From the NCBI RefSeq assembly GCF_017641085.1, contig NZ_JAEPPI010000001.1, forward strand, positions 248,001 through 312,000: DNA of 64,000 nucleotides, in the 5' to 3' direction. Position 1 is the stretch's first letter, and every line of letters starts with the position of its first letter. The DNA is from Gracilimonas sp. Lineage in GTDB: Bacteria; Bacteroidota; Rhodothermia; Balneolales; Balneolaceae. Positions 22,850 to 35,975 of this stretch are shown one piece after another. The translations under genes and the position numbers were made by a program. A model generated the notes under the pieces. That model was not told where the DNA came from, did not search any database, and saw only the letters and a program-made list of their open reading frames with translations.

Positions 22850-23167
22850 CTAAAAAGAAGGAACCACATCGTTTCTGTACATGGTGTCCAGTAAAGTAAT
22901 GCCTACCATCAGTATAAAGAAACAAACGGCCATGATAAGCAGCATGGCGTTGAACTTGACATCCCAGTACAGGTTCATGAAAAATGCGGCTACCAAAAAT
23001 GCTTTTACCAATGCAACAGCCATGGCGGTAACTACATCGAAGGGAGGTGGAATGGCAACAAATTTCGCCAGTACTACGGTAATGATAGTCAAAATCAGCA
23101 ATGCGGTACCAACGGCCCAAAGCTGGCCTGCTGAAGAAACGTGATGTTCGTGATTATGTGCGCTCAT
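22850..23167 (-). CDS. coxD: Cytochrome c oxidase subunit IV-like protein
   Basis: A 105-residue protein with three membrane helices (about 13-36, 44-64 and 72-94) and an N-terminal His-rich stretch (HNHEHH). It is the small subunit IV of bacterial aa3/caa3 oxidases, last gene of the operon and 46 bp after coxC. The VKAFLVAAFFMNL helix resembles prokaryotic COX4 proteins. Accessory role in oxidase assembly or stability. Confidence 0.85.
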   Translation of the reverse strand: MSAHNHEHHVSSAGQLWAVGTALLILTIITVVLAKFVAIPPPFDVVTAMAVALVKAFLVAAFFMNLYWDVKFNAMLLIMAVCFFILMVGITLLDTMYRNDVVPSF

Positions 23168-23213
23168 AATATCTGTATTCTAAGTTCTTTGGTGGTGATA
23201 ATATCAATCTCTG

Positions 23214-23864
23214 TCATTCAATGAGATAGAGGAGTGGAAACAGGAAGATCCAGATGAGGTCAACCAAGTGCCAGTACAGGCCGGTGATCTCAACAGGGGT
23301 ATAATATTCACTGCTGAATTCTCCTTTCTTAGCACGCAGGTAAATCCAGTAAATGAGCCCGATTCCAATTATTACGTGAAGGGCGTGAACGCCGGTCAGC
23401 ATGTAATAGATGCTGAAGAAGATAGCTGCCTGGGCGTGTTCAAGTCCTTCGTAGGTGTAATATTCGCCCGGAAAGATTCCCAGCTCAAATTTGTGGGCAT
23501 ACTCGAAAGCTTTAATCACCATAAACACTACAGCCAGAGCGATTGTTATCAAGAGATTGATTTTAAGCCCTTTGATCTGGTCTTTCTGTACGGAACGTAT
23601 AGCCATCGCTACCGTCAAACTACTACCGATCAGAACCACCGTGTTTACGGCTCCCCAAAAGGTATTCAGCTCAAGGGCTGCTTCGGTGAAAAGTTCAGGA
23701 TACCATGCTCTATATATGATATAAGCACAGAATAATCCGCCAAAGAATAGGATTTCGTTTACCAAGAACACCCACATACCCATTTTTGCGGTGTCAAATT
23801 GCTGATCAGAGTCAACAAAGTGATGCTGCACATGCGTGGGGTGTGAAGTCGAATGATTCGCCAT
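23214..23864 (-). CDS. coxC: Cytochrome c oxidase subunit III
   Basis: A 216-residue short-form subunit III with five membrane helices. It begins with a His-rich leader (residues 4-16), then [24 protein letters not shown] and ends with [24 protein letters not shown], the conserved COX3 C-terminal signature. It stabilises the catalytic core and lies 36 bp after coxA. Confidence 0.93.
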
Positions 23865-23899
23865 TTACTTCCCGAGTTGTGTTGTTTGAATTTAAATTT

Positions 23900-25660
23900 T
23901 TAGTTGGATTCTACCTTCTTCCGGGCAGCAGTCACTTCTGCAGCCTCATGGCTTGGGTCATGACCGTTATGAGAGTCAGCCAGACCAAGCTGGAATTCTT
24001 CCATCGGTTTGTGATAATCATATGGTCCGTTAATGATAACCGGAGTATGATCGAAGTTGTGGAAGTCGGGCGGTGAAGTTGCCTGCCATTCCAGTCCACG
24101 ACTACCCCAGGGGTTAGATCCGGCTTTCTCACCTGTAAATAATGACTTCATCAGGTAATATGCGATAAGCAGGAACCCAACACCAAGGATGTATGATCCA
24201 ATGGTTGAGGTTTGATGGAAAATTGTAAACTGATCGATGTAGTTGTAATAACGTCGTGGCATTCCTTGTGATCCCATAATAAACTGCGGGAGAAAGGTTA
24301 CGTTAAAGCCGACGAATATAAGTACGGCTCCGATTTTTGCCTGAAATTCATTGTACATCTTACCGGTCATCTTAGGCCACCAGTAATGGAGTCCGGCTAA
24401 CAGAGCAATAAGGGTTCCACCCATCATTACATAATGAAAGTGAGCTACCACGTAGTATGTGTCGTGCAGGTGAATGTCGGCAGAAAGAGCACCAAGCATA
24501 ATCCCTGTAAATCCTCCAATGGAGAACAAGAACAGGAAGATAAATACATAAAGCATTGGAGTCTTCATCTCGATTGACCCCTTATACAGTGTAGCGATCC
24601 AGTTTAGAATCTTGATACCAGTTGGAATACCAACGAGGAAAGTCAGGAATGAAAATACGGTAGTTGCCACGGCAGACTGACCGGAGGTAAACATGTGGTG
24701 TCCCCAAACGAGGAATCCAATAAATGCAATAGCAAGAGATGAAAGTGCAATCGCCCAGTATCCGAAAATGTGTTTCTTAGAGAAGGTGGTAATTACTTCA
24801 GAGATGATTCCAAAACCCGGTACAATCATGATATATACCGCAGGGTGTGAGTAGAACCAGAAGAAATGCTGGAATAGTACGGGATCACCGCCAAGAGCCG
24901 GGTCAAAAATTCCGATTCCCAGGAAACGCTCCATGGTCAACAGTAAAAGCGTGATCGCCAATACCGGCGTAGCTAATACCTGAATGATACTGGTTGCATA
25001 CAGCGCCCAGATATTCAGAGGGAGTTTGCCCCAGGTAATACCGGGAGCTCTCATCTTATGAATGGTAGAAATAAAATTTGTACCGGTTAAAATAGAGGAG
25101 AAACCAAGTATAAAGACTCCTAAGGTTACCCAAATCACACTGGATGAAGAGGTGGTACTGTAAGGTGTGTAGAACGTCCAGCCGGTGTCCAGTCCATTAT
25201 TTGCCAAAGCAATAAAGGTGAAGATGGCTCCAATCACGTAAATGTAGAAACTTGCGAGGTTTAGCCGGGGGAAGGCTACATCCTTGGCTCCAAGCTGCAT
25301 GGGAAGTACAAAGTTACCCAAAGCGGCCGGGATGGAGGGAACGAGCACAAAGAATACCATAATGGCACCGTGCAGGGTAAAGAATTGGTTATATGTATCG
25401 GCTTCGATGAACGTTTTTGCAGGGGTCAGGAGCTCGGTTCTTAATAAGAGAGCAAGCACTCCACCCAGCAGAAAGAAGAGGGCAACCGAACCCAGGTACA
25501 TAAGTCCGATTTTCTTGTGATCTACTGTCGTCATCCAGGCCCAAAGACCTTTTTCATCGGTCAAATAGGTATTTTTTGGGTCTTCGGACGGCTTAAACCG
25601 CTTAACTTTTAATGTTCGTACGTTCCCTGAAGAGGAAGGTGTTACTTCAGCTGTTGCCAT
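23900..25660 (-). CDS. coxA: Cytochrome c oxidase subunit I (A2-type heme-copper oxidase)
   Basis: The 586-residue catalytic subunit, with 12 or more membrane helices carrying low-spin heme and the heme-Cu(B) centre. Visible signatures are [11 protein letters not shown] (low-spin heme His), [15 protein letters not shown] (Cu(B) His-Tyr region), WGHHMFTSG (Cu(B) histidines) and [16 protein letters not shown] (heme ligands). The YSHP form replaces the glutamate of the D-pathway seen as GHPE in A1 oxidases. This is the known A2 pattern found in Rhodothermus and Thermus caa3. One base separates it from coxB. Confidence 0.97.
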
Positions 25661-25661
25661 G

Positions 25662-26606
25662 TTATTCTTCTAACGTTTTAATGTATTCAATAATGTCGGA
25701 GATGTCGTCGTCACTAAGGCGACCCTCATAGCTAACCATTTGGTTTTGATATCCTTCAACAATTTTGTCGCCGGGATTCAGAATAGACTCTCTGATATAG
25801 TTTGCATCAGCAATTTCAGAAGAACCGTCTTCGAAATTACGTTCTTGTTCCCACAGGCCCTGCCATGTTGGGCCAATACCATCAGATCCATCTACAGAGT
25901 GACAGCTTACACAACCTTGTAAGGTGGCAAGTTGTTCACCGCGTTCCACGGGAGTTCCGCCACCGCCGGTTCCTTGCTCATCGAGCCAGGCTTTAAAGTC
26001 TTCTTCGGTGTGCACAATTACTTTAGCCAACATATCAGAGTGGGAGGTACCGCAATATTCGGTACAGAAAACCTGTGATTCACCGGCTTCTTCAGCCTGG
26101 AACCAAACATAGGTGTATCGGTTTGGCAGCACGTCTTGCTTAATTCGGTAATCTGGTACAAAAAAGGAGTGAAGTACGTCCTGAGACTGCATCACCAATT
26201 TAACCGGCCGACCGGCGGGTACATGCACTTCGTTACCAACCTGTGCTCCGGTTTCATATTTGAAAGTCCAGCCCCACTTGTAGGCAGAAACCTGAATTTC
26301 GTATGCGTTATCGGGTACGGTTTTGAGATTCAGCCATCCTTTGTATCCCCATCCAAAAACAACAAAAACCAGCAGAAGGGGTATTACCGACCAGGTAATT
26401 TCCAGGGTGTTGTTGTGGGTGATAAGCGGAGTTTTATCATTTTCTGATTTGCGCTTGTACTTGATTGCAAAATAGATCATTGCAATGGTAACACCGGCAA
26501 GAAGGATAAAACTGACGATGTGGATGAATGCCATCAGCGCATCGGTACTTGCTCCCGTCATCGGAGATTTAAGCTCCGGGAGCATAAAATCGAATAAACT
26601 GCCCAT
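25662..26606 (-). CDS. coxB: Cytochrome c oxidase subunit II with fused cytochrome c (caa3 type)
   Basis: A 314-residue protein. Two N-terminal membrane helices (about 23-47 and 66-86) are followed by a cupredoxin domain with the Cu(A) site. That site shows [15 protein letters not shown] and [12 protein letters not shown], two Cys, His and Met. A C-terminal class I cytochrome c domain carries the heme motif CVSCH near residue 231 and a YQNQM distal methionine region. The covalent cytochrome defines a caa3 oxidase that can take electrons directly from complex III. The ATG overlaps the sco stop (TAATG). Confidence 0.96.
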
Positions 26607-27436
26607 TAGTTAAATTCAGTTTTTGAGGTTGGTTTTTTGCGTTTTTCGCGAAGCCAAAGCACGCCGAGGAATATACCGAGAATTATCAGTGTAGCCAAGC
26701 CGCCAAGCTTCATAATATTAATTGCTACCGGCGCATAACTGCCGGAATCCGGATCGTATTGATAACAGAACATCACAAGTTTATCGACGGTGTTACCAAT
26801 CGTTCCGTCCGCAGATTCATACAAGGCACTGCGAACATTGAATGAGTCGTAGGAGATGCCGTACAAATAACGGGTAATCTTACCTTGCGGACTCAGGAGC
26901 ATGATTGCCGCACTGTGGGCAAACTCTCCGGTTTGTTCAATTTCTTTGTATTCAAATCCAACAGCTTCAATTACTTTGTCAATCTGATCTTTCTTTCCGG
27001 TGAGGAAGTGCCAACCTGCTTTCGTGGTGGAGTCCATACCGGCCAGGTAATTTTTTTTTGACTTAGCTGCCAGTTCAGCATTTTCCTCAGGGTCAATACT
27101 GATAGAGATTACAATAAATTCTTTACCGGGCTTCCAGGCCAGTTCATCAACAACATTAATCACTCCGTCTATTACAAGCCCGCATAACATCGGGCATTCG
27201 TAGTATAGCGGGTTCAATAAAACAGGTTTTCCTTCCTCCAGTAAATCACCAAGCACAACACTGTCACCTTCGGAGGTTGCAAACTTAGCATCAAGAGGGA
27301 TATAGTCTCCCAAATGCTCATCAATACCGAGATCTTGCAGCGCATCCGGCGTTTCACGATTAACCTGCGCTTGGGCAGAATGTGAAGTCAGAAACACTGC
27401 AAGCATGCTAATTGCTAACAGTGTAGAACGTCTCAT
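26606..27436 (-). CDS. SCO1/SenC-family copper chaperone for Cu(A) assembly
   Basis: A 276-residue protein with a signal peptide (residues 1-23, ending AQA). The thioredoxin-like domain carries the CxxxC copper motif (YYECPMLCG) near residue 85 and a downstream His in EFAHSAAIML near residue 170. A C-terminal helix (about 242-263) with a basic tail would anchor it in the membrane. SCO proteins deliver copper or act as thiol reductants at the Cu(A) site, which fits its place directly before coxB. Confidence 0.93.
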   Translation of the reverse strand: MRRSTLLAISMLAVFLTSHSAQAQVNRETPDALQDLGIDEHLGDYIPLDAKFATSEGDSVVLGDLLEEGKPVLLNPLYYECPMLCGLVIDGVINVVDELAWKPGKEFIVISISIDPEENAELAAKSKKNYLAGMDSTTKAGWHFLTGKKDQIDKVIEAVGFEYKEIEQTGEFAHSAAIMLLSPQGKITRYLYGISYDSFNVRSALYESADGTIGNTVDKLVMFCYQYDPDSGSYAPVAINIMKLGGLATLIILGIFLGVLWLREKRKKPTSKTEFN

Positions 27437-27447
27437 GATGGTTGGTG

Positions 27448-27978
27448 TCAGTCTGTGGCTATTCTACTAATAGCGCTATCAATAGGAATTCTGTAAATAC
27501 CTTCCTCAAGGTCAACCACTCCAAAGCTATTCAGCTCTTGATCTTGTTCAGCTTTTAATTCTTGTACTTCTGAATAACCGCTTTGGGCTGATACCTGTTT
27601 TTGAGCTTCAAAAAGGCTGTATTGAGAAAAATAGACTAAACCGATAACAAAAATAATAACGAGTGCGGTTCCCAGAGTAGACCAGAAGATCAATTTGTTG
27701 TAGTTGAGGTTGTCACTCATCACGCCGTGCTCTACGGCACCGGCAAACTCTTCATTTTCAGTTGTGATGTCAACTTCCTCTGTTACAGCCTCATCGGCAT
27801 GTGCCGTTTCGGTAGTAAAAATCTGAGAAGCTTCATCCTGAAGCTGAGCAGCCCACTCAATTACATCATCTTCTGAAACGTCATGCTTTTGAGCAATCTT
27901 CTCAATCACAGAACGCCCCTGAGCTACAGCTTCGAGTGCTACTTTTGCTTTAAATTCTGAGCTATACTTTTCTGACAT
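27448..27978 (-). CDS. Membrane protein with transposase-like HTH domain inside the respiratory operon
   Basis: A 176-residue protein in two parts. Residues 3-50 (KYSSEFKAKVALEA...IAQKHDVSEDDVIEWAAQL) resemble the helix-turn-helix of IS3/IS911-family OrfA transposases: the YSxEFKAKVALEA opening and the IAxxHxVSxxxVxxW recognition-helix spacing are shared. An acidic linker (about 55-88), one membrane helix (about 97-118) and an extracytoplasmic tail of about 58 residues follow. No transposase catalytic domain is present. It lies 12 bp after actF and 11 bp before sco. Topology puts the HTH in the cytoplasm and the tail with the cytochromes. Possible roles are an accessory subunit or a membrane-bound regulator; neither is shown. 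Confidence 0.75.
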   Translation of the reverse strand: MSEKYSSEFKAKVALEAVAQGRSVIEKIAQKHDVSEDDVIEWAAQLQDEASQIFTTETAHADEAVTEEVDITTENEEFAGAVEHGVMSDNLNYNKLIFWSTLGTALVIIFVIGLVYFSQYSLFEAQKQVSAQSGYSEVQELKAEQDQELNSFGVVDLEEGIYRIPIDSAISRIATD

Positions 27979-27990
27979 CGGTAAATTCGA

Positions 27991-29187
27991 TTATTGGTGA
28001 TACGATTTGGACAGGCAGTCTTCCAGTTTTGGATCGTTCTTTGGCACCATGTCGTGCTTCTTGAATGTATTAAAGAACAGTCCAAAGAAAATACCTCCCA
28101 ATCCAAGGAAAGTAGTGATATCCATCCAGCTGAAGTGGATGCCATGTTTAAACAATACCGGCATGGCAATCCAGTAGATTTCTGCAAAGTGAATGACTAA
28201 TACGATCGCTGATACAATTCCTAAAATAGTTCGGTTCTTCTTGGCTTCACGGTTAAGTAATACCAGGAATGGCAGAGCAAAACGGAAAATCAACAAGCTG
28301 TACGCTATATACTTCCAGCTGCCTTCCAGTCGGTGGAAATACCACAGGGTTTCTTCCGGAAGGTTTGCATAATAAATAAGTAAAAACTGACTGAATGCGA
28401 TGTATGCATAGAATACTGTGAATGCAAAAAACCAGGCACCAAGATCATAGATGTGTACTTGTCGAATGGTGTTTTTCAAAATCCCTTTGCTCTGTATAAA
28501 GAAAATCAGCAGAATCATAATAGGCCAAAACGCCTGGAAACTAATGGAGAAAAAGTAAACGCCAAACATGGTTGAAAACCAGTGAGGGTCAAGCGACATC
28601 AACCAGTCGAAGCTGGCAAATGCAATAGAAAGAGCAAACAAAGGAATACCCGGGGCACTTACTTTGCGCAACAAGCTGGTTAATCCCCAGTCATTGGTTT
28701 TATCCATCTCTACGGAAACCTTATGCAGCTTATATCCAAGATATCCCCAAATGGCAAAGTAGATAAACTGACGGGCAATAAAGAAGGGTGTATTCAGGTA
28801 AGCTGATTTCCCTTTAAGAATTTTGTCGGCCATTACGGCATCTTCATGGCTCCAGTGGTACAAATTATGAATCCCAAGTATTACAGGGACCACAAATATG
28901 GCCCATATCCAAAGATTGGCTGTAAACGACTCCGATATTCTTCGAACCAACACTCCCCATGAAGAGCGGGTGATATGATGCAGCATGACCATCAAAAGGG
29001 CGGCTAAAGCAATTCCGGTAAAAAAGACAAAGCTAACCAGGTACGAAAAGAAGAACTGGTCGGCATCTAAAAAGTAGCCAACAAGGCTGGCAATCAGGCC
29101 AACGGCACCAACACCGAATAGGGCACGAGGAACTTTGCTGTCGGCTGGAAATTGTAAAGAATCTGTTATTGTAGGCTTATGACTCAT
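27991..29187 (-). CDS. actF: Alternative complex III subunit F (quinol:cytochrome c oxidoreductase membrane subunit)
   Basis: A 398-residue protein with about ten membrane helices, related in fold to the NrfD-like ActC. Recognisable family stretches include HHITRSSWGVLVRRISE, the LYHWSHED loop and SLDPHWFSTMFGVYFF. It forms the second membrane pillar of alternative complex III. It follows actE by 25 bp. Confidence 0.92.
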   Translation of the reverse strand: MSHKPTITDSLQFPADSKVPRALFGVGAVGLIASLVGYFLDADQFFFSYLVSFVFFTGIALAALLMVMLHHITRSSWGVLVRRISESFTANLWIWAIFVVPVILGIHNLYHWSHEDAVMADKILKGKSAYLNTPFFIARQFIYFAIWGYLGYKLHKVSVEMDKTNDWGLTSLLRKVSAPGIPLFALSIAFASFDWLMSLDPHWFSTMFGVYFFSISFQAFWPIMILLIFFIQSKGILKNTIRQVHIYDLGAWFFAFTVFYAYIAFSQFLLIYYANLPEETLWYFHRLEGSWKYIAYSLLIFRFALPFLVLLNREAKKNRTILGIVSAIVLVIHFAEIYWIAMPVLFKHGIHFSWMDITTFLGLGGIFFGLFFNTFKKHDMVPKNDPKLEDCLSKSYHQ

Positions 29188-29212: not shown

Positions 29213-30217
29213 TTAGTTTTCAGATAGATTTTTGATGTAAAGCACGATCGACTCAATTTCATGGTCGGCGAGGTAGCTGTAAGAAGCCATCACACCCTGT
29301 GCATAATCAACAGGTTTTGCAGCTTCAGGAGCAACGATGGACTCGCGAATGTAATCTTCATCTTTAGTAACGGTGATAGTCTCGCCGTCAGCGGTTATTA
29401 CCTCACCTTCGCTTCCAAACAGTCCGGCCCAAGTTGGCCCAATGCCTCCGGGTGTGCCGTCTTCGTTGTGGCAGGCAGCACATCCGTTCGCTGTAATTAC
29501 TTCTTTACCCAGATCTACTGTAGCCTGAGGAGCCTCATCAGGAGTTCTGGCTGCTTCAATAGAATCTTGACGGGCTTGTTCAGCAGCAAATGCAGTCTGC
29601 ATTGCATCTACATCAACCGGATATTCCTGAATTTCCTGCTCATTGATATTCTGGCTTTCCTGTAAGGCGCGAATGTATGCTACAATAGCCCAGCGGTCTT
29701 CAACAGGTACCTGTGTGGAGTAGGAAGGCATGGTACGTACGCCGTTATAAATAGCGGAATACAACTCACCGTCAGATAATTCTCTTACTCTTTGATCGTG
29801 GTATGAAGGTGCCGGAACGTATCCGTAATTTCCTTCCATAATAATACCATTACCTGCACCGGTTTGTCCGTGGCAGGGAGCGCAATAAATTTCGTAGCGT
29901 TCTTTACCTCTGTAAAGGAATGACTTGGTTAGGTCAACCGGGATGTAATCAATAAAATCACCGTTTTCTTCAATTCCTTCGTAGTAAGCAAGGTCTGTTT
30001 TTGCCAATCCACGGGCAACGGTTCCATCCACCGGCTGACGCATGGCACGGCCATCCGCAAAAAAGTTATTTTCTTCCTGTGCTTCTACTCTCGGCTGCTG
30101 GTCCATATTCATGTTGGGGTGAATAGGGGGCTTTTCAGAAAGCTGACCCTGACAGGCCGATAAAGTGACTCCGAGCGCAAAGACGCCCGCAATCTTAAAC
30201 ATTCTTTTAATGTTCAT
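29213..30217 (-). CDS. actE: Alternative complex III subunit E, diheme lipoprotein cytochrome c
   Basis: The start at 30217 (MNIKRMFKIAG) gives a 334-residue lipoprotein with lipobox LSAC near residue 22; an ATG at 30253 overlaps actD by 8 bp and is the alternative. There are two CxxCH motifs. CAPCHGQ lies in the standard ActE domain (about residue 118). CAACHNEDG lies in an additional C-terminal class I cytochrome c domain (about residue 245). That second domain resembles the one fused to CoxB: both read GIGPTWxGL, YIRESI and end in a IEYIKxL-like helix. ActE is usually monoheme, so the extra heme probably relays electrons toward the oxidase. Confidence 0.92.
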   Translation of the reverse strand: MNIKRMFKIAGVFALGVTLSACQGQLSEKPPIHPNMNMDQQPRVEAQEENNFFADGRAMRQPVDGTVARGLAKTDLAYYEGIEENGDFIDYIPVDLTKSFLYRGKERYEIYCAPCHGQTGAGNGIIMEGNYGYVPAPSYHDQRVRELSDGELYSAIYNGVRTMPSYSTQVPVEDRWAIVAYIRALQESQNINEQEIQEYPVDVDAMQTAFAAEQARQDSIEAARTPDEAPQATVDLGKEVITANGCAACHNEDGTPGGIGPTWAGLFGSEGEVITADGETITVTKDEDYIRESIVAPEAAKPVDYAQGVMASYSYLADHEIESIVLYIKNLSEN

Positions 30218-30245
30218 TCCTGGAAATGATATTTGAGTATTCGTT

Positions 30246-30791
30246 TTATTCATAAACTTCCTCAATGTGAGTAGCACCGGCTTCTTCGAATAGTTTCTTA
30301 ACCTTATCGGCATCAAACATATCGTCTTCAGCTTCAATGCAGGCAAAGAAACCATCGTCGGTTGCTTTCTTAAATCGCTCAACGTTGAAAAGAGGATTAT
30401 TCAGTTTCGGAAGTCCGTTCAGGAAAAACATCCCGAATACAGCTCCGAAGGAAGACAGAAGCACTGTTAATTCAAAAGTGATAGGAACCCAAGCAGGGGC
30501 GTTAAAAAACGGTTTACCGCTGATATTCATCGGGTAATCAATAACAGCCATGTAATACATCATAGCCAGTGCTCCAAAGAAACCGATACACGCATGTCCG
30601 ATTACAATCCAGCCAAGCTTTGACTTTTTGAGGTTCATGGCCTTATCCATTCCATGAATAGGGAAAGGACTAAAGGTATCAAACTTGCTGAACCCTGACT
30701 TTGACATTGTTTTGGCAACATCAATCAGCTCCTTGGGATTTCTGAACTCGGCTATAACGCCGTATAAATCATTCTTTTCTGTTGTACTCAT
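30246..30791 (-). CDS. actD: Alternative complex III subunit D (DUF3341)
   Basis: A 181-residue protein with an N-terminal alpha/beta domain (YGVIAEFRNPKELIDVAK) and two membrane helices (about 63-83 and 100-121), then a FFACIEAEDD segment typical of DUF3341. It is a structural subunit between ActC and ActF. Four bases separate it from actC. Confidence 0.93.
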   Translation of the reverse strand: MSTTEKNDLYGVIAEFRNPKELIDVAKTMSKSGFSKFDTFSPFPIHGMDKAMNLKKSKLGWIVIGHACIGFFGALAMMYYMAVIDYPMNISGKPFFNAPAWVPITFELTVLLSSFGAVFGMFFLNGLPKLNNPLFNVERFKKATDDGFFACIEAEDDMFDADKVKKLFEEAGATHIEEVYE

Positions 30792-30795
30792 AATC

Positions 30796-32223
30796 TTAAA
30801 CCTTCTCAGCTTGAGGTTTCGGTACTTCTACTTTAGGGGCTTCAAATTCCTTGGTTTCCTCATCGTAATTGTGAGGATCAGCCAGAGGAATCACTGCTTT
30901 AATTTCCGCGAGTGCAACCATTGGCAGGAAGCGCAAGAACAGGAGGAACATGGTGAAAAACAGACCAAATGTTCCAACGTAAGTTAATACGTCCCAAATG
31001 GTTGGGGAATAATAGTCCCAGCTGGATGGCAGGTAATCGTTTGCCAGTGAAGTTACCGTAATTACAAATCGTTCAAACCACATACCGATGTTCACCACAA
31101 TTGAAATAAAGAAGGTGAAGCCAACGCTGCGGCGTAATTTCTTGGACCAGAAGAACTGAGGGGACAACACGTTACAAGTCATCATCGCCCAGTATGCCCA
31201 TGCATAAGGACCGGTTGCTCTCAGAATAAAAATCGCTTTCTCATATTCAACGCCACTATACCAGGCGATGAAGAACTCCATCATGTAAGCAAAGCCTACC
31301 ATAGAGCCGGTAACGAGGATCACAATATTCATTTTTTCCATGTGATCATCCGTCATGATGTCTTTCATTCCATAGATCTTGCGGGCAACAATCATCAGGG
31401 TAAGTACCATCGCAAAACCGGAGAAAATAGCACCGGCAACAAAATAAGGAGGGAAAATAGTGGTGTGCCATCCCGGAATCATGGAAACGGCAAAGTCAAA
31501 GGATACAATGGTGTGTACCGAAAGTACCAGCGGAGTTGCCAAACCGGCCAGAATCATATAAGCTTTCTCGTAATTCCACCAGTGACGGTTTGAACCGGTC
31601 CATCCAAGAGAGAAAATTCCGTACACAACCTTTCTGATTTTGTCGGTTGCACGATCACGAATGGTTGCAAGGTCAGGAACCAGTCCCACATACCAGAATA
31701 GCAGGGAAACGGTGAAGTAGGTAGAAACCGCAAACACGTCCCAAAGAAGGGGAGAGTTGAAGTTTGGCCACATTGCCATAGAGTTAGGAACCGGGAACAC
31801 CCAGTAAATAACCCAGATACGACCAACGTGAATAGCCGGGAATACACCGGCACACATTACTGCAAAAATGGTCATAGCTTCCGCAAAACGGTTAATAGCG
31901 GTACGCCAGTCCTGCCGAAAGAGAAATAAAATCGCCGAAATCAGGGTGCCGGCGTGACCAATACCAACCCACCATACAAAGTTAATGATGGCCCAACCCC
32001 AACCAACGGGATTGTTAAGTCCCCAAATTCCAGTTCCTTCCCAGATCAGGTAGCCAATGGCGGCAACCATAACAAAAAGCAGGCCGTTTGCGGCAATCAT
32101 GCATAGGTACCATGCTTTTGGAGTAGGGCGTAAATTTATATCGGTAATCAGTCTCGTAAGGCTCGAAAAGTCATGGTCGCCTTTTACAAGAGCGGGTTCC
32201 GGTACGTATTGGTATTTACTCAT
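30796..32223 (-). CDS. actC: Alternative complex III subunit C (NrfD-like quinol-binding membrane subunit)
   Basis: A 475-residue polytopic protein with about ten helices of the NrfD/PsrC family. It forms the quinol-oxidising membrane subunit next to the Fe-S subunit ActB. Family stretches include [46 protein letters not shown] and [11 protein letters not shown]. The charged tail after residue 440 faces the cytoplasm. It follows actB by 27 bp. Confidence 0.94.
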
Positions 32224-32250
32224 GTTTTGGATGTATTCCTGATTAATATC

Positions 32251-35200
32251 TTAAGCCAAAGCAGGGTTTGGATTCGTAAGTTTAGCCATATAAGATGTTC
32301 TCGGACGCGTGTTAAGCTCTTCGAGCATCTGGAAGTTTCGTTCGTTGCGCTTCATTTTCGCAACTTCGCTGTTATCGTCGGTTAAATCACCAAAGTAAAT
32401 GGCATCGGCAGGACATGCTTGCTGACAAGCAGTTTTAACAGCGCCATCTGCAGGTTTTGGAGAACCGGTTTTGTTCTTGGCTTCAATTTTTGCACGGTTT
32501 ACGCGCTGTGCGCAATACGTACATTTCTCCATCACACCACGGAAACGAACGGTTACTTCCGGATTCATCGCCATTTGGATGATATCAGGATCGTCGCCCG
32601 TAGTTAAGTATTCTTTTGGATAGTTGAAGAAGTTGAATCGACGAACTTTATAAGGACAGTTATTCGCGCAGTAACGGGTTCCGATACAGCGGTTATATGT
32701 CATTTGGTTCATGCCGTCGTCACTGTGGGTAGTTGCCGCAACCGGGCAAACCTGCTCACAAGGGGCAAGCTCACAATGCATACATGGAACCGGCTGGTGA
32801 ACCGCTTGTGGTGAATCCGGATCATCACCCACATAGTAGCGGTCGTTACGGATCCAGTGCATCTCACGGCCGCTTTTCACTTCTTTTTTCCCGATAACAG
32901 GGATATTGTTTTCTGACTGACAAGCGATCACACATACACCACAACCAAAACAGGAGTTCAGGTCAATAGCCATTCCCCATTGTGGTTCATGATCGGGGTA
33001 GGTTTGCTCGTCAAAGAGAGAAATAGGCTGATCTTCGCCCATTTCTTCTGCTTCTTTCATGCCCGGCACTTCATAGATGTGAACCGAGGCGAAGGAAGCA
33101 AAGTCCGGATTGTCTTTGTATTCAGAAATCGAAGCCTGACGATACATATCTCGTCCTTCAAGGCTGTGGTGATCCTGAACACAGGCAATTTCATAGGTGT
33201 CACCGGTTTTGGAAACGCTGGCTGAGGCATACAGCATATTATCTGTACCTCTCAGTGGATACACATCCACCCCACCTGCGGTGTAATCAATATAGGAACT
33301 GGCTACCCGGCCAATTCCTTCCCGTCCATAACCGGTGGTTAAAGTAATGGCGTCATCAACATGTCCCGGCTGAATCCAGGCTACAATATTAATGCTCTTG
33401 CCATTTACGGTAATTTCTACAACATCGTAATCATCTTGTCCGGCACTGGCTTCTTCAATACCGAGTTTCTCTGCCGTAGCAGGACTCATAAGCGCCACGT
33501 TATCCCAGGTAACTTTCGTCATTGGGTCGGGAAGCTCCTGAAGCCACCCAAGGTTGGCGTAACGTCCGTCGTACAAAGTAGCATCAGGACGAATAACCAC
33601 TTCCATACCGGAAGTAGAAGTAACATTGGATGTAGCGCGGTTCATTGCGGAAGTAAATCCGGAGGTTAACCGAACATTTACTTCGTTAAAGTTGCCGGTA
33701 GTGTCAATACCGTCATGCAGGATATTGGTCCATCGGTTATCAAAACCGGAACGGTAGTATCCCTGAAAGGTGTCTCTTACAAGATCATAACCGGCAGTAA
33801 TAGAACCGGATACGATGGTATTTAAAAACTCAATTTCACTTAAACCTTCATGCAAAGGCCTGATTTGCGGCTGGATCACTGAACGTGCTCCGCCATAAGA
33901 ATAACCGTCTCCCCATGCTTCCAGGAAATGTGCACGGTTTACGTGCCAGGTAGATTTCAGGGAAGTTTCATCAACGTAATCAGATAGATTGACTACGGTT
34001 TCAACATTAGAGAGGGCGTTTTCAAAGTCAAGATCAGCCGGTGCGTTGAATACCGGGTTCACACCCACCATAACAACAGTGTCGATGTTGCCGGCTTTCA
34101 TTTCAGCAACCACATTGGCAAAAGCTTCAGTGCTGTTTTGCTCATCAAGGTGTGGCACTTCTAAATAGTGAACTGTGCTTCCGGTATTTCCTAATGCATT
34201 ATTAATTGCGGCAACCGCAGCGTGCACTTCAGGTTTGTGCTGGCTTCCCAGCGTAAGTGCTGAACGTCCGGCGTTAGCAGCCAGATCATCAGCAAGAGCT
34301 GTAATCCACTTGTGATCAGAAAATTCGTTTGAGTAACCGCTGAAAGCACTTAATCCATTAACGCGTGTAGAAAGCGCTGCAGCCAGTGCATAAGTAAAGG
34401 CTTCCATTTGGCTGGCTTTAACTCTCAGTCGGTGATCGGCATAAGAACCGGTGAGTGAGAAAGAATCTTCCACCGAATAAATACGGTTCATTTCACCGTC
34501 TGTATCGGTCACTTTACGTCGGGAAGAAACTTGTTTGGCGTATTCAACACTGTTTGGATGCGTTGAACTCATGAAGTCATCATTCAGAGAAACAATAACA
34601 TCCGCATTCTCAAAATTGTAATGGGTTCTCAGTCGTCCGCCAAAAGCAATTCGGTTACCTTCTAATACATTGTCTTCGCCAAATGGCTCATAAGTAACCC
34701 AGGTTGCATTATTGAATTTCGAAAGGGCCTGCTCCTTAATATTGTTGTAAGTAGGAGAGGAATTTGCTTCAGAAATGAAAGCGATACGCTGACCGGTATT
34801 CGCAAAATGAGAGTTGGCAAAAGCTTCAAAGTCAGCTTTGGTTGCTTTCTCGCCATTTTGTAAAGGTGATCGTGATCGATCAGGATCGTACAGCCCAAGA
34901 ATGGCTGCCTGATTAAAAATACTGGTTCCGCCACGGCTGGCAGGATGCATGTCGTTACCTTCAAGCTTGGTAGGCCGGCCTTCATGATTCTCAGCAATCA
35001 AACCAACCAGGTTGCCCTGAACCGGCATTGCCGTTGCATAATATAAAGGTACGCCGGGAACTACATCTTCGGGCTGCTTGGAATAAGGAAGGATTTTTTG
35101 AACCGGTCGGCGACAAGCGGCGAGCCCGGCCAGAGCTACGGAAGCTCCCATAACACGTAAAAATCCACGACGTGATACACCATCCGAAAGTTCGGTGGCG

Positions 35201-35331
35201 TTCTCAGGAAACTCGCGCTCGGCAAATTTCTGGTATTCCTTATTATTGGCTAGTTCGTTTAAACTCTTCCAATACGTAGTTTCTTTCACTTCTTCACTCA
35301 TCTGTCGATCTGTAGATTCTAAATCATTCAT
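32251..35331 (-). CDS. actB: Alternative complex III subunit B (molybdopterin-oxidoreductase-like plus ferredoxin-type Fe-S domain)
   Basis: About 1026 residues. The ATG at 35331 overlaps the actA stop (TAATG). An upstream in-frame start at 35352 would overlap actA by 22 bp and is less likely. A Tat-type signal SRRGFLRVMG is present near residue 50, with a following LAAC. The large middle region is the degenerate MopB-like domain, which lacks cofactor in known ActB proteins. The C-terminal quarter has ferredoxin-type clusters: CFGCGVCVIAC, CMHCELAPCEQVC, CIGTRYCANNC and CTYCAQ...CQQAC. It relays electrons from quinol to the ActA hemes. Confidence 0.95.
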   Translation of the reverse strand: MNDLESTDRQMSEEVKETTYWKSLNELANNKEYQKFAEREFPENATELSDGVSRRGFLRVMGASVALAGLAACRRPVQKILPYSKQPEDVVPGVPLYYATAMPVQGNLVGLIAENHEGRPTKLEGNDMHPASRGGTSIFNQAAILGLYDPDRSRSPLQNGEKATKADFEAFANSHFANTGQRIAFISEANSSPTYNNIKEQALSKFNNATWVTYEPFGEDNVLEGNRIAFGGRLRTHYNFENADVIVSLNDDFMSSTHPNSVEYAKQVSSRRKVTDTDGEMNRIYSVEDSFSLTGSYADHRLRVKASQMEAFTYALAAALSTRVNGLSAFSGYSNEFSDHKWITALADDLAANAGRSALTLGSQHKPEVHAAVAAINNALGNTGSTVHYLEVPHLDEQNSTEAFANVVAEMKAGNIDTVVMVGVNPVFNAPADLDFENALSNVETVVNLSDYVDETSLKSTWHVNRAHFLEAWGDGYSYGGARSVIQPQIRPLHEGLSEIEFLNTIVSGSITAGYDLVRDTFQGYYRSGFDNRWTNILHDGIDTTGNFNEVNVRLTSGFTSAMNRATSNVTSTSGMEVVIRPDATLYDGRYANLGWLQELPDPMTKVTWDNVALMSPATAEKLGIEEASAGQDDYDVVEITVNGKSINIVAWIQPGHVDDAITLTTGYGREGIGRVASSYIDYTAGGVDVYPLRGTDNMLYASASVSKTGDTYEIACVQDHHSLEGRDMYRQASISEYKDNPDFASFASVHIYEVPGMKEAEEMGEDQPISLFDEQTYPDHEPQWGMAIDLNSCFGCGVCVIACQSENNIPVIGKKEVKSGREMHWIRNDRYYVGDDPDSPQAVHQPVPCMHCELAPCEQVCPVAATTHSDDGMNQMTYNRCIGTRYCANNCPYKVRRFNFFNYPKEYLTTGDDPDIIQMAMNPEVTVRFRGVMEKCTYCAQRVNRAKIEAKNKTGSPKPADGAVKTACQQACPADAIYFGDLTDDNSEVAKMKRNERNFQMLEELNTRPRTSYMAKLTNPNPALA

Positions 35332-35975
35332 TAGTAATGGCAACCCTGGCAATAAGTTGGAGCATGAATATTCTTCTTATCTACCAGTTCACGGCCAATT
35401 TCTAACTGGTTTTCAACCTGGTAACCCATGGTTGTGACTTCATCAACGGGACGTACATACTTTTCCGGCTCCCGGTGACAATCCAGGCACCAGCCCATGC
35501 TAAGCGGCTCAGTCTGGTAAACAACTTCCATCTTATCAATTCTTCCGTGGCAGCTTTCACAACCCACACCCACATTAGTATGGGCAGAGTGATTGAAATA
35601 AGCATAATCAGGCAGGTTGTGCACGCGAACCCATTCAATAGCTTTTCCGGTTTCCCAGCTCTCACGCACCAGCGCCAGCTTATCGCTGTCGGTCTTAATT
35701 TGATTGTGACAATTCATACAGGTTTGCGTGGCAGGAATGTTAGCCTGCTTGGAATCCCAAACACTGGTGTGGCAGTACTGGCAGTCGAGGCCAAGCTGAT
35801 CCACGTGCAATTTGTGACTATAAGGAACGGGTTGTTCCGGAGCGTAGCCAACGTCAGTGTATTCAGGAGAGAAGAAGTACCAAACACCAAAAATGATTGC
35901 GTTCAGTACCACGATTAATCCAATTAAAATTTTTCGGGGAACCTGATTTGTCCACTTGGGGAAAATCTGCGCCAT
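35331..35975 (-). CDS. actA: Alternative complex III subunit A, pentaheme cytochrome c
   Basis: A 214-residue protein with one N-terminal membrane anchor (about 15-34) and five CxxCH heme motifs: CQYCH, CMNCH, CESCH, CLDCH and CQGCH. This is the expected pentaheme ActA, first gene of the 12-gene operon. A likely TAGATTTG -7 box lies about 59 bp upstream, with a 9-bp dyad farther upstream. Confidence 0.95.
   Translation of the reverse strand: MAQIFPKWTNQVPRKILIGLIVVLNAIIFGVWYFFSPEYTDVGYAPEQPVPYSHKLHVDQLGLDCQYCHTSVWDSKQANIPATQTCMNCHNQIKTDSDKLALVRESWETGKAIEWVRVHNLPDYAYFNHSAHTNVGVGCESCHGRIDKMEVVYQTEPLSMGWCLDCHREPEKYVRPVDEVTTMGYQVENQLEIGRELVDKKNIHAPTYCQGCHY

Follow-up and report, generated by a model that had tools for sequence, protein, structure and literature searches.

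A transposase-type HTH domain fused to the alternative complex III subunit ActG in Gracilimonas and its family, and its possible reuse for protein docking

In the DNA analysed here, a 64,000-nucleotide stretch of a Gracilimonas sp. genome (the window), the gene between actF and sco encodes what, judged from its sequence, is the known alternative complex III (ACIII) subunit ActG with a transposase-type HTH domain fused to its N-terminus. We consider it fairly probable that this OrfA-like HTH was turned into a cytoplasmic protein-docking module on the assembly of ACIII and the caa3 oxidase.

The actG open-reading frame begins with ATG and is in frame throughout (Table 1). It is separated from actF by 12 bp and from sco by 11 bp, the spacing within one operon that had been described for it. 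The gene order actABCDEFG-sco-coxBACD was verified, with an NCBIfam match to caa3_sub_IV (TIGR02229) inside the caa3 oxidase block, and is identical in the checked relatives and in R. marinus. The position actF-actG-sco is universal in the Gracilimonas family (f1, assumed to be Balneolaceae), in its order and in R. marinus, and actG is present in 125 of 147 relatives, indicating that its conservation is not due to chance. One of the two Chloroflexus clusters has actG after actF, and the other has it ahead of sco and cox genes (PMC3150298).

Table 1. Features of the actG region of the window, and ActG loci with an Fn3/Ig-like domain in other families
Feature	Position	Strand	Basis
actG (HTH-TM-tail protein, 176 aa)	27448..27978	-	ORF, hhalign, synteny
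HTH_Tnp_1 domain, residues 3-52	27823..27972	-	Pfam PF01527; AlphaFold2, three helices
Acidic linker, residues 53-85	27724..27822	-	low pLDDT at ~residues 51-80; top pN/pS
Single TM helix, residues 96-116	27631..27693	-	hydropathy; AlphaFold2 helix, pLDDT 93-97
Conserved ActG tail motif LNSFGVVDLEEGIYRIPIDSAI..., residues 149-175	27454..27534	-	matches 8k9e_G
ActG core	27448-27723	-	
sco (SCO1/SenC copper chaperone)	26606..27436	-	PF02630, E 2.7e-11
caa3 oxidase genes coxB, coxA, coxC, coxD	22850..26606	-	ORFs, gene order
actF	27991..29187	-	homologous to R. marinus ActF
actE	29213-30382	-	ORF; order as in R. marinus and relatives
actE, C-terminal domain	29216-29515	-	
actD	30246-30791	-	ORF; order as in R. 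marinus and relatives
actC	30796-32223	-	ORF; order as in R. marinus and relatives
actB	32251-35352	-	ORF; order as in R. marinus and relatives
actA	35331-35975	-	ORF; order as in R. marinus and relatives
Block actA to actE	29213..35975	-	
Fn3/Ig-like ActG loci	L048:2991-3728, L049:3118-3876, L050:2667-3470, L110:3043-3783, L202, L206, L207, L212		

In hhalign, the profiles of HTH-bearing and HTH-free ActG aligned across residues 69-176 of the window protein with a probability of 99.9 and an E-value of 1.4e-34, and the profile of the HTH-free members matched Chloroflexus ActG in the PDB (8k9e_G, E 7e-4; next match 0.3). A PDB search with the single ActG sequence gave no matches, and the PPR repeat proteins that topped the PDB matches of profile A2 were rejected as artefacts. 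A 130-aa ORF between actF and sco of R. marinus (G127) matched the window protein at E 3e-10, and ActF of the same genome has the length of 6f0k_F and matched it across 417/417 residues. The window protein resembles ActG of R. marinus and Chloroflexus (8k9e_G) in operon position, in its single TM helix and in the C-terminal motif (Y/F)GxxDxxxGxYxIPIDxAm, which lies in the best-conserved stretch of the family, the tail motif of residues 149-175; unlike it, those proteins, of 130 aa in R. marinus and 112 aa in Chloroflexus, are without an N-terminal HTH. The original prediction had taken the protein for a respiratory subunit not yet described, a reading that was dropped for the host protein because its core aligns with ActG and that survives for the HTH extension. 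Since ActG itself is already known, the novelty is confined to the lineage-specific HTH fused to it, and a literature search that covered few subscription journals found no described ActG or ACIII subunit with an HTH and nothing relevant on ACIII of Balneola or on domestication of HTH_Tnp_1. ActG of R. marinus was identified in purified ACIII by peptide mass fingerprinting and gave no density in the ACIII structure, actG is missing from some act clusters, and R. marinus ACIII forms a supercomplex with caa3 (PMC5928083). The ActG core is covered by no Pfam or NCBIfam model, despite its wide spread and the solved 8k9e_G.

Residues 3-52 match PF01527 at E 2.1e-6, their 28.3 bits exceeding the gathering score of 24.1, as expected for the transposase-type HTH originally proposed, and the model is also matched by 36 of 53 homologues (best E 1.8e-8); NCBIfam gave only sub-threshold matches, to IS66 TnpA and IS3. 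An AlphaFold2 model of the window ActG, built on 53 aligned homologues, has helices at residues 7-20, 22-31 and 36-59, with pLDDT ~83-87 over residues 11-50, and a long helix at residues 93-151 (TM part pLDDT 93-97) followed by a small hairpin and, at the end, one more helix; the global pTM of 0.29 means that the relative placement of these domains carries no meaning. Foldseek with this model against the PDB returned no significant match (best E 0.22), the top hits being homeodomain-like. The predicted acidic linker is borne out by AlphaFold2, which shows it as disordered, and the one membrane helix (residues 96-116) by hydropathy and by AlphaFold2. Lysine and arginine residues flanking the TM helix number 162 on the N side versus 103 on the C side across 90 proteins, and this modest positive-inside bias suggests that the N-terminus lies in the cytoplasm; the tail is presumably extracytoplasmic. 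Three outcomes had been named as fatal to the proposal, namely no similarity to HTH_Tnp_1, another fold and absence of the gene from related operons, and none of them occurred. A recent IS insertion or a misannotation was rejected, as the genome is without other HTH_Tnp_1 domains over the cut-off and the domain is family-wide.

The survey of actF-sco regions proposed in the original prediction located the HTH-bearing gene across the family, where it is kept in nearly all genera, and no HTH was present in ActG of any further family sampled from the order, class and phylum. A tree of ActF and SCO places every HTH bearer in a single clade (SH-aLRT 97) and implies five changes of the HTH character, namely a single gain and four others. 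In a comparison with 25 transposase HTHs from the same order and class, a single branch (support 0.89) separates the 54 ActG HTHs from all of the transposases, and the Lys-Trp spacing is 32 in 53/54 ActG HTHs versus 29-31 (34 once) in the transposases. From these patterns the fusion to ActG appears to have arisen once, and the HTH seems to have been lost about four to six times within the family. Regain was considered for L029 and L059 and found less likely than repeated loss, since their HTHs keep the ActG-specific spacing. In L011 and L012 (genomes G002 and G009), the first ~17 codons are kept and are followed by an in-frame gap in place of the HTH, which in the alignment reads as a direct trace of its deletion; L040 (G011) holds a similar remnant. 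These three loci, of which two belong to the same genus as the window, are natural controls with an HTH-less ActG.

The domain shares with the N-terminus of IS3/IS911 OrfA (PF01527) the three-helix HTH and the pattern (Y/F)S.EFK.KV..EA....V...W. It differs in being acidic rather than basic, in lacking Lys or Arg after the core Trp, in a longer stretch between helices 1 and 2 and in being fused to a membrane protein without leucine zipper or catalytic partner: the alignment spans profile positions 5-54 of 75, and the gene is flanked by actF and sco, with no adjacent catalytic OrfB. The net charge of the ActG HTH averages -2.0 (-8 to +2) against a transposase mean of +4.5 (+1 to +7; p 2e-12), its recognition helix averages -1.8 versus +1.9, and Lys or Arg follows the core Trp (W42) in 0/54 ActG HTHs versus 24/25 transposases, while the Trp itself is retained in 53/54. 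These residue patterns indicate that the three-helix fold is kept and the DNA-binding surface is lost. Acidic HTH domains can in some cases still bind DNA. With the nearest transposases only ~30% identical, descent from an IS3-type OrfA rather than from another related HTH is likely, short of proof.

The favoured course of events would begin in the ancestor of the family, in which an HTH_Tnp_1-type domain, closest to the N-terminus of an IS3-type OrfA, would have been fused in frame to the N-terminus of ActG and would then have lost its DNA-binding surface while retaining its three-helix fold. The ACIII(-caa3) assembly would hold the helix and tail of ActG, and the HTH, on its flexible acidic linker, would bind a further protein on the cytoplasmic side, the candidates being one of the other subunits of ACIII or caa3, another ActG molecule or an assembly factor; this putative docking would stabilise the supercomplex or help to build it. 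The erasure of the DNA-binding charge over long retention suggests reuse for holding proteins together, and we infer protein binding with a role in assembly or stability. There is a precedent in RodZ, in which an N-terminal HTH binds MreB (PMC3599482). As is predicted for ActG, RodZ is a single-TM protein with an N-terminal cytoplasmic HTH, one that binds MreB and not DNA; with no detected homology and with another HTH family and system, the analogy is one of mechanism only. When the operon proteins of relatives with and without the HTH were compared, none had altered its length or termini in parallel with the HTH, so that no partner was revealed by correlated length changes. The repeated loss of the HTH indicates that the domain is dispensable and hence that its role would be modest or conditional. 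Thus, the idea of a domesticated transposase domain holds as to its new use in the ACIII/caa3 operon, and of the two roles suggested for it, assembly is favoured and DNA-binding regulation is disfavoured.

Alternatively, the HTH might mainly self-associate and so bring ActG, and with it the ACIII-caa3 assemblies, together in the membrane as dimers or clusters. The loss of DNA-binding features from the HTH is compatible with this, as is the fact that OrfA proteins of the IS3/IS911 type oligomerise, but they do so via a leucine zipper that follows the HTH and not via the HTH itself, and this part is not retained in ActG, where the match to the profile stops. Self-association as the main role is unlikely.

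Among close relatives, the pooled pN/pS of the HTH is 0.28, close to the 0.23 of the tail; the linker, the fastest-evolving region of ActG, has 0.37 and the TM region 0.12. These values indicate purifying selection on the HTH. Divergence of the HTH tracks that of ActF and SCO (Spearman 0.56, 0/500 permutations), which is expected under vertical descent. These results bear on whether the domain could be a neutral passenger, a tolerated in-frame insertion that has no function and is slowly decaying, as its several independent losses and its lower identity (0.36, against 0.48 in the ActG core) might suggest. Against this stand the purifying selection, the fold-defining Trp and the spacing, each kept in 53/54, and the retention of the HTH in nearly all genera of the family, and we regard a neutral passenger as quite unlikely.

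Membrane one-component regulators are built in the order HTH, linker, TM helix and tail, as ActG is, and the Pfam score of its HTH lies above the cut-off, so that ActG could be conceived as a membrane-tethered transcription regulator in the manner of ToxR or CadC, with the tail sensing the state of ACIII/caa3 and the HTH binding DNA, for example at the act/cox promoter. ToxR and CadC share the HTH-TM-extracytoplasmic layout with ActG, but their HTHs are winged and have a basic DNA-binding surface, whereas the ActG HTH has three helices without a wing in the AlphaFold2 model, and they act outside respiratory enzymes. The HTH of most ActG members is acidic, with a mean below the minimum of the transposases, as is its recognition helix, and the basic residue after the core Trp is absent in 54/54; because these DNA-contact features are gone and several lineages have dropped the domain without losing the operon, a DNA-binding regulator is disfavoured and, in our judgement, very unlikely. 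That the HTH binds nucleic acid and tethers ACIII-caa3 to the nucleoid, or reports the respiratory state to transcription, is more improbable still.

ActG of other Rhodothermia families (f9, f11, f12 and f14) carries an Fn3/Ig-like N-terminal domain of ~100 aa before the TM helix, with no obvious signal peptide, an assignment made through a weak Pfam match for L049 only and by sequence pattern for the others. By these patterns it is a second, independent N-terminal addition to ActG, and with such a domain in another branch the ActG N-terminus looks like a site of domain addition. Elsewhere in the operon, ActE has an additional, C-terminal c-type heme domain that shares 44% identity (E 5e-20) with the cytochrome c domain of the CoxB encoded in this operon; ActE had two CxxCH sites in 21/21 family members checked versus one in R. 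marinus. This second heme domain may provide a further heme step from ACIII to caa3.

ActG is the least understood subunit of ACIII, and the family-wide gain, remodelling and repeated loss of its HTH amount to a natural experiment on the role of ActG in the ACIII-caa3 supercomplex. The domain is also a clear example of a transposase-type HTH reused in a core bioenergetic enzyme with its DNA-binding charge removed.
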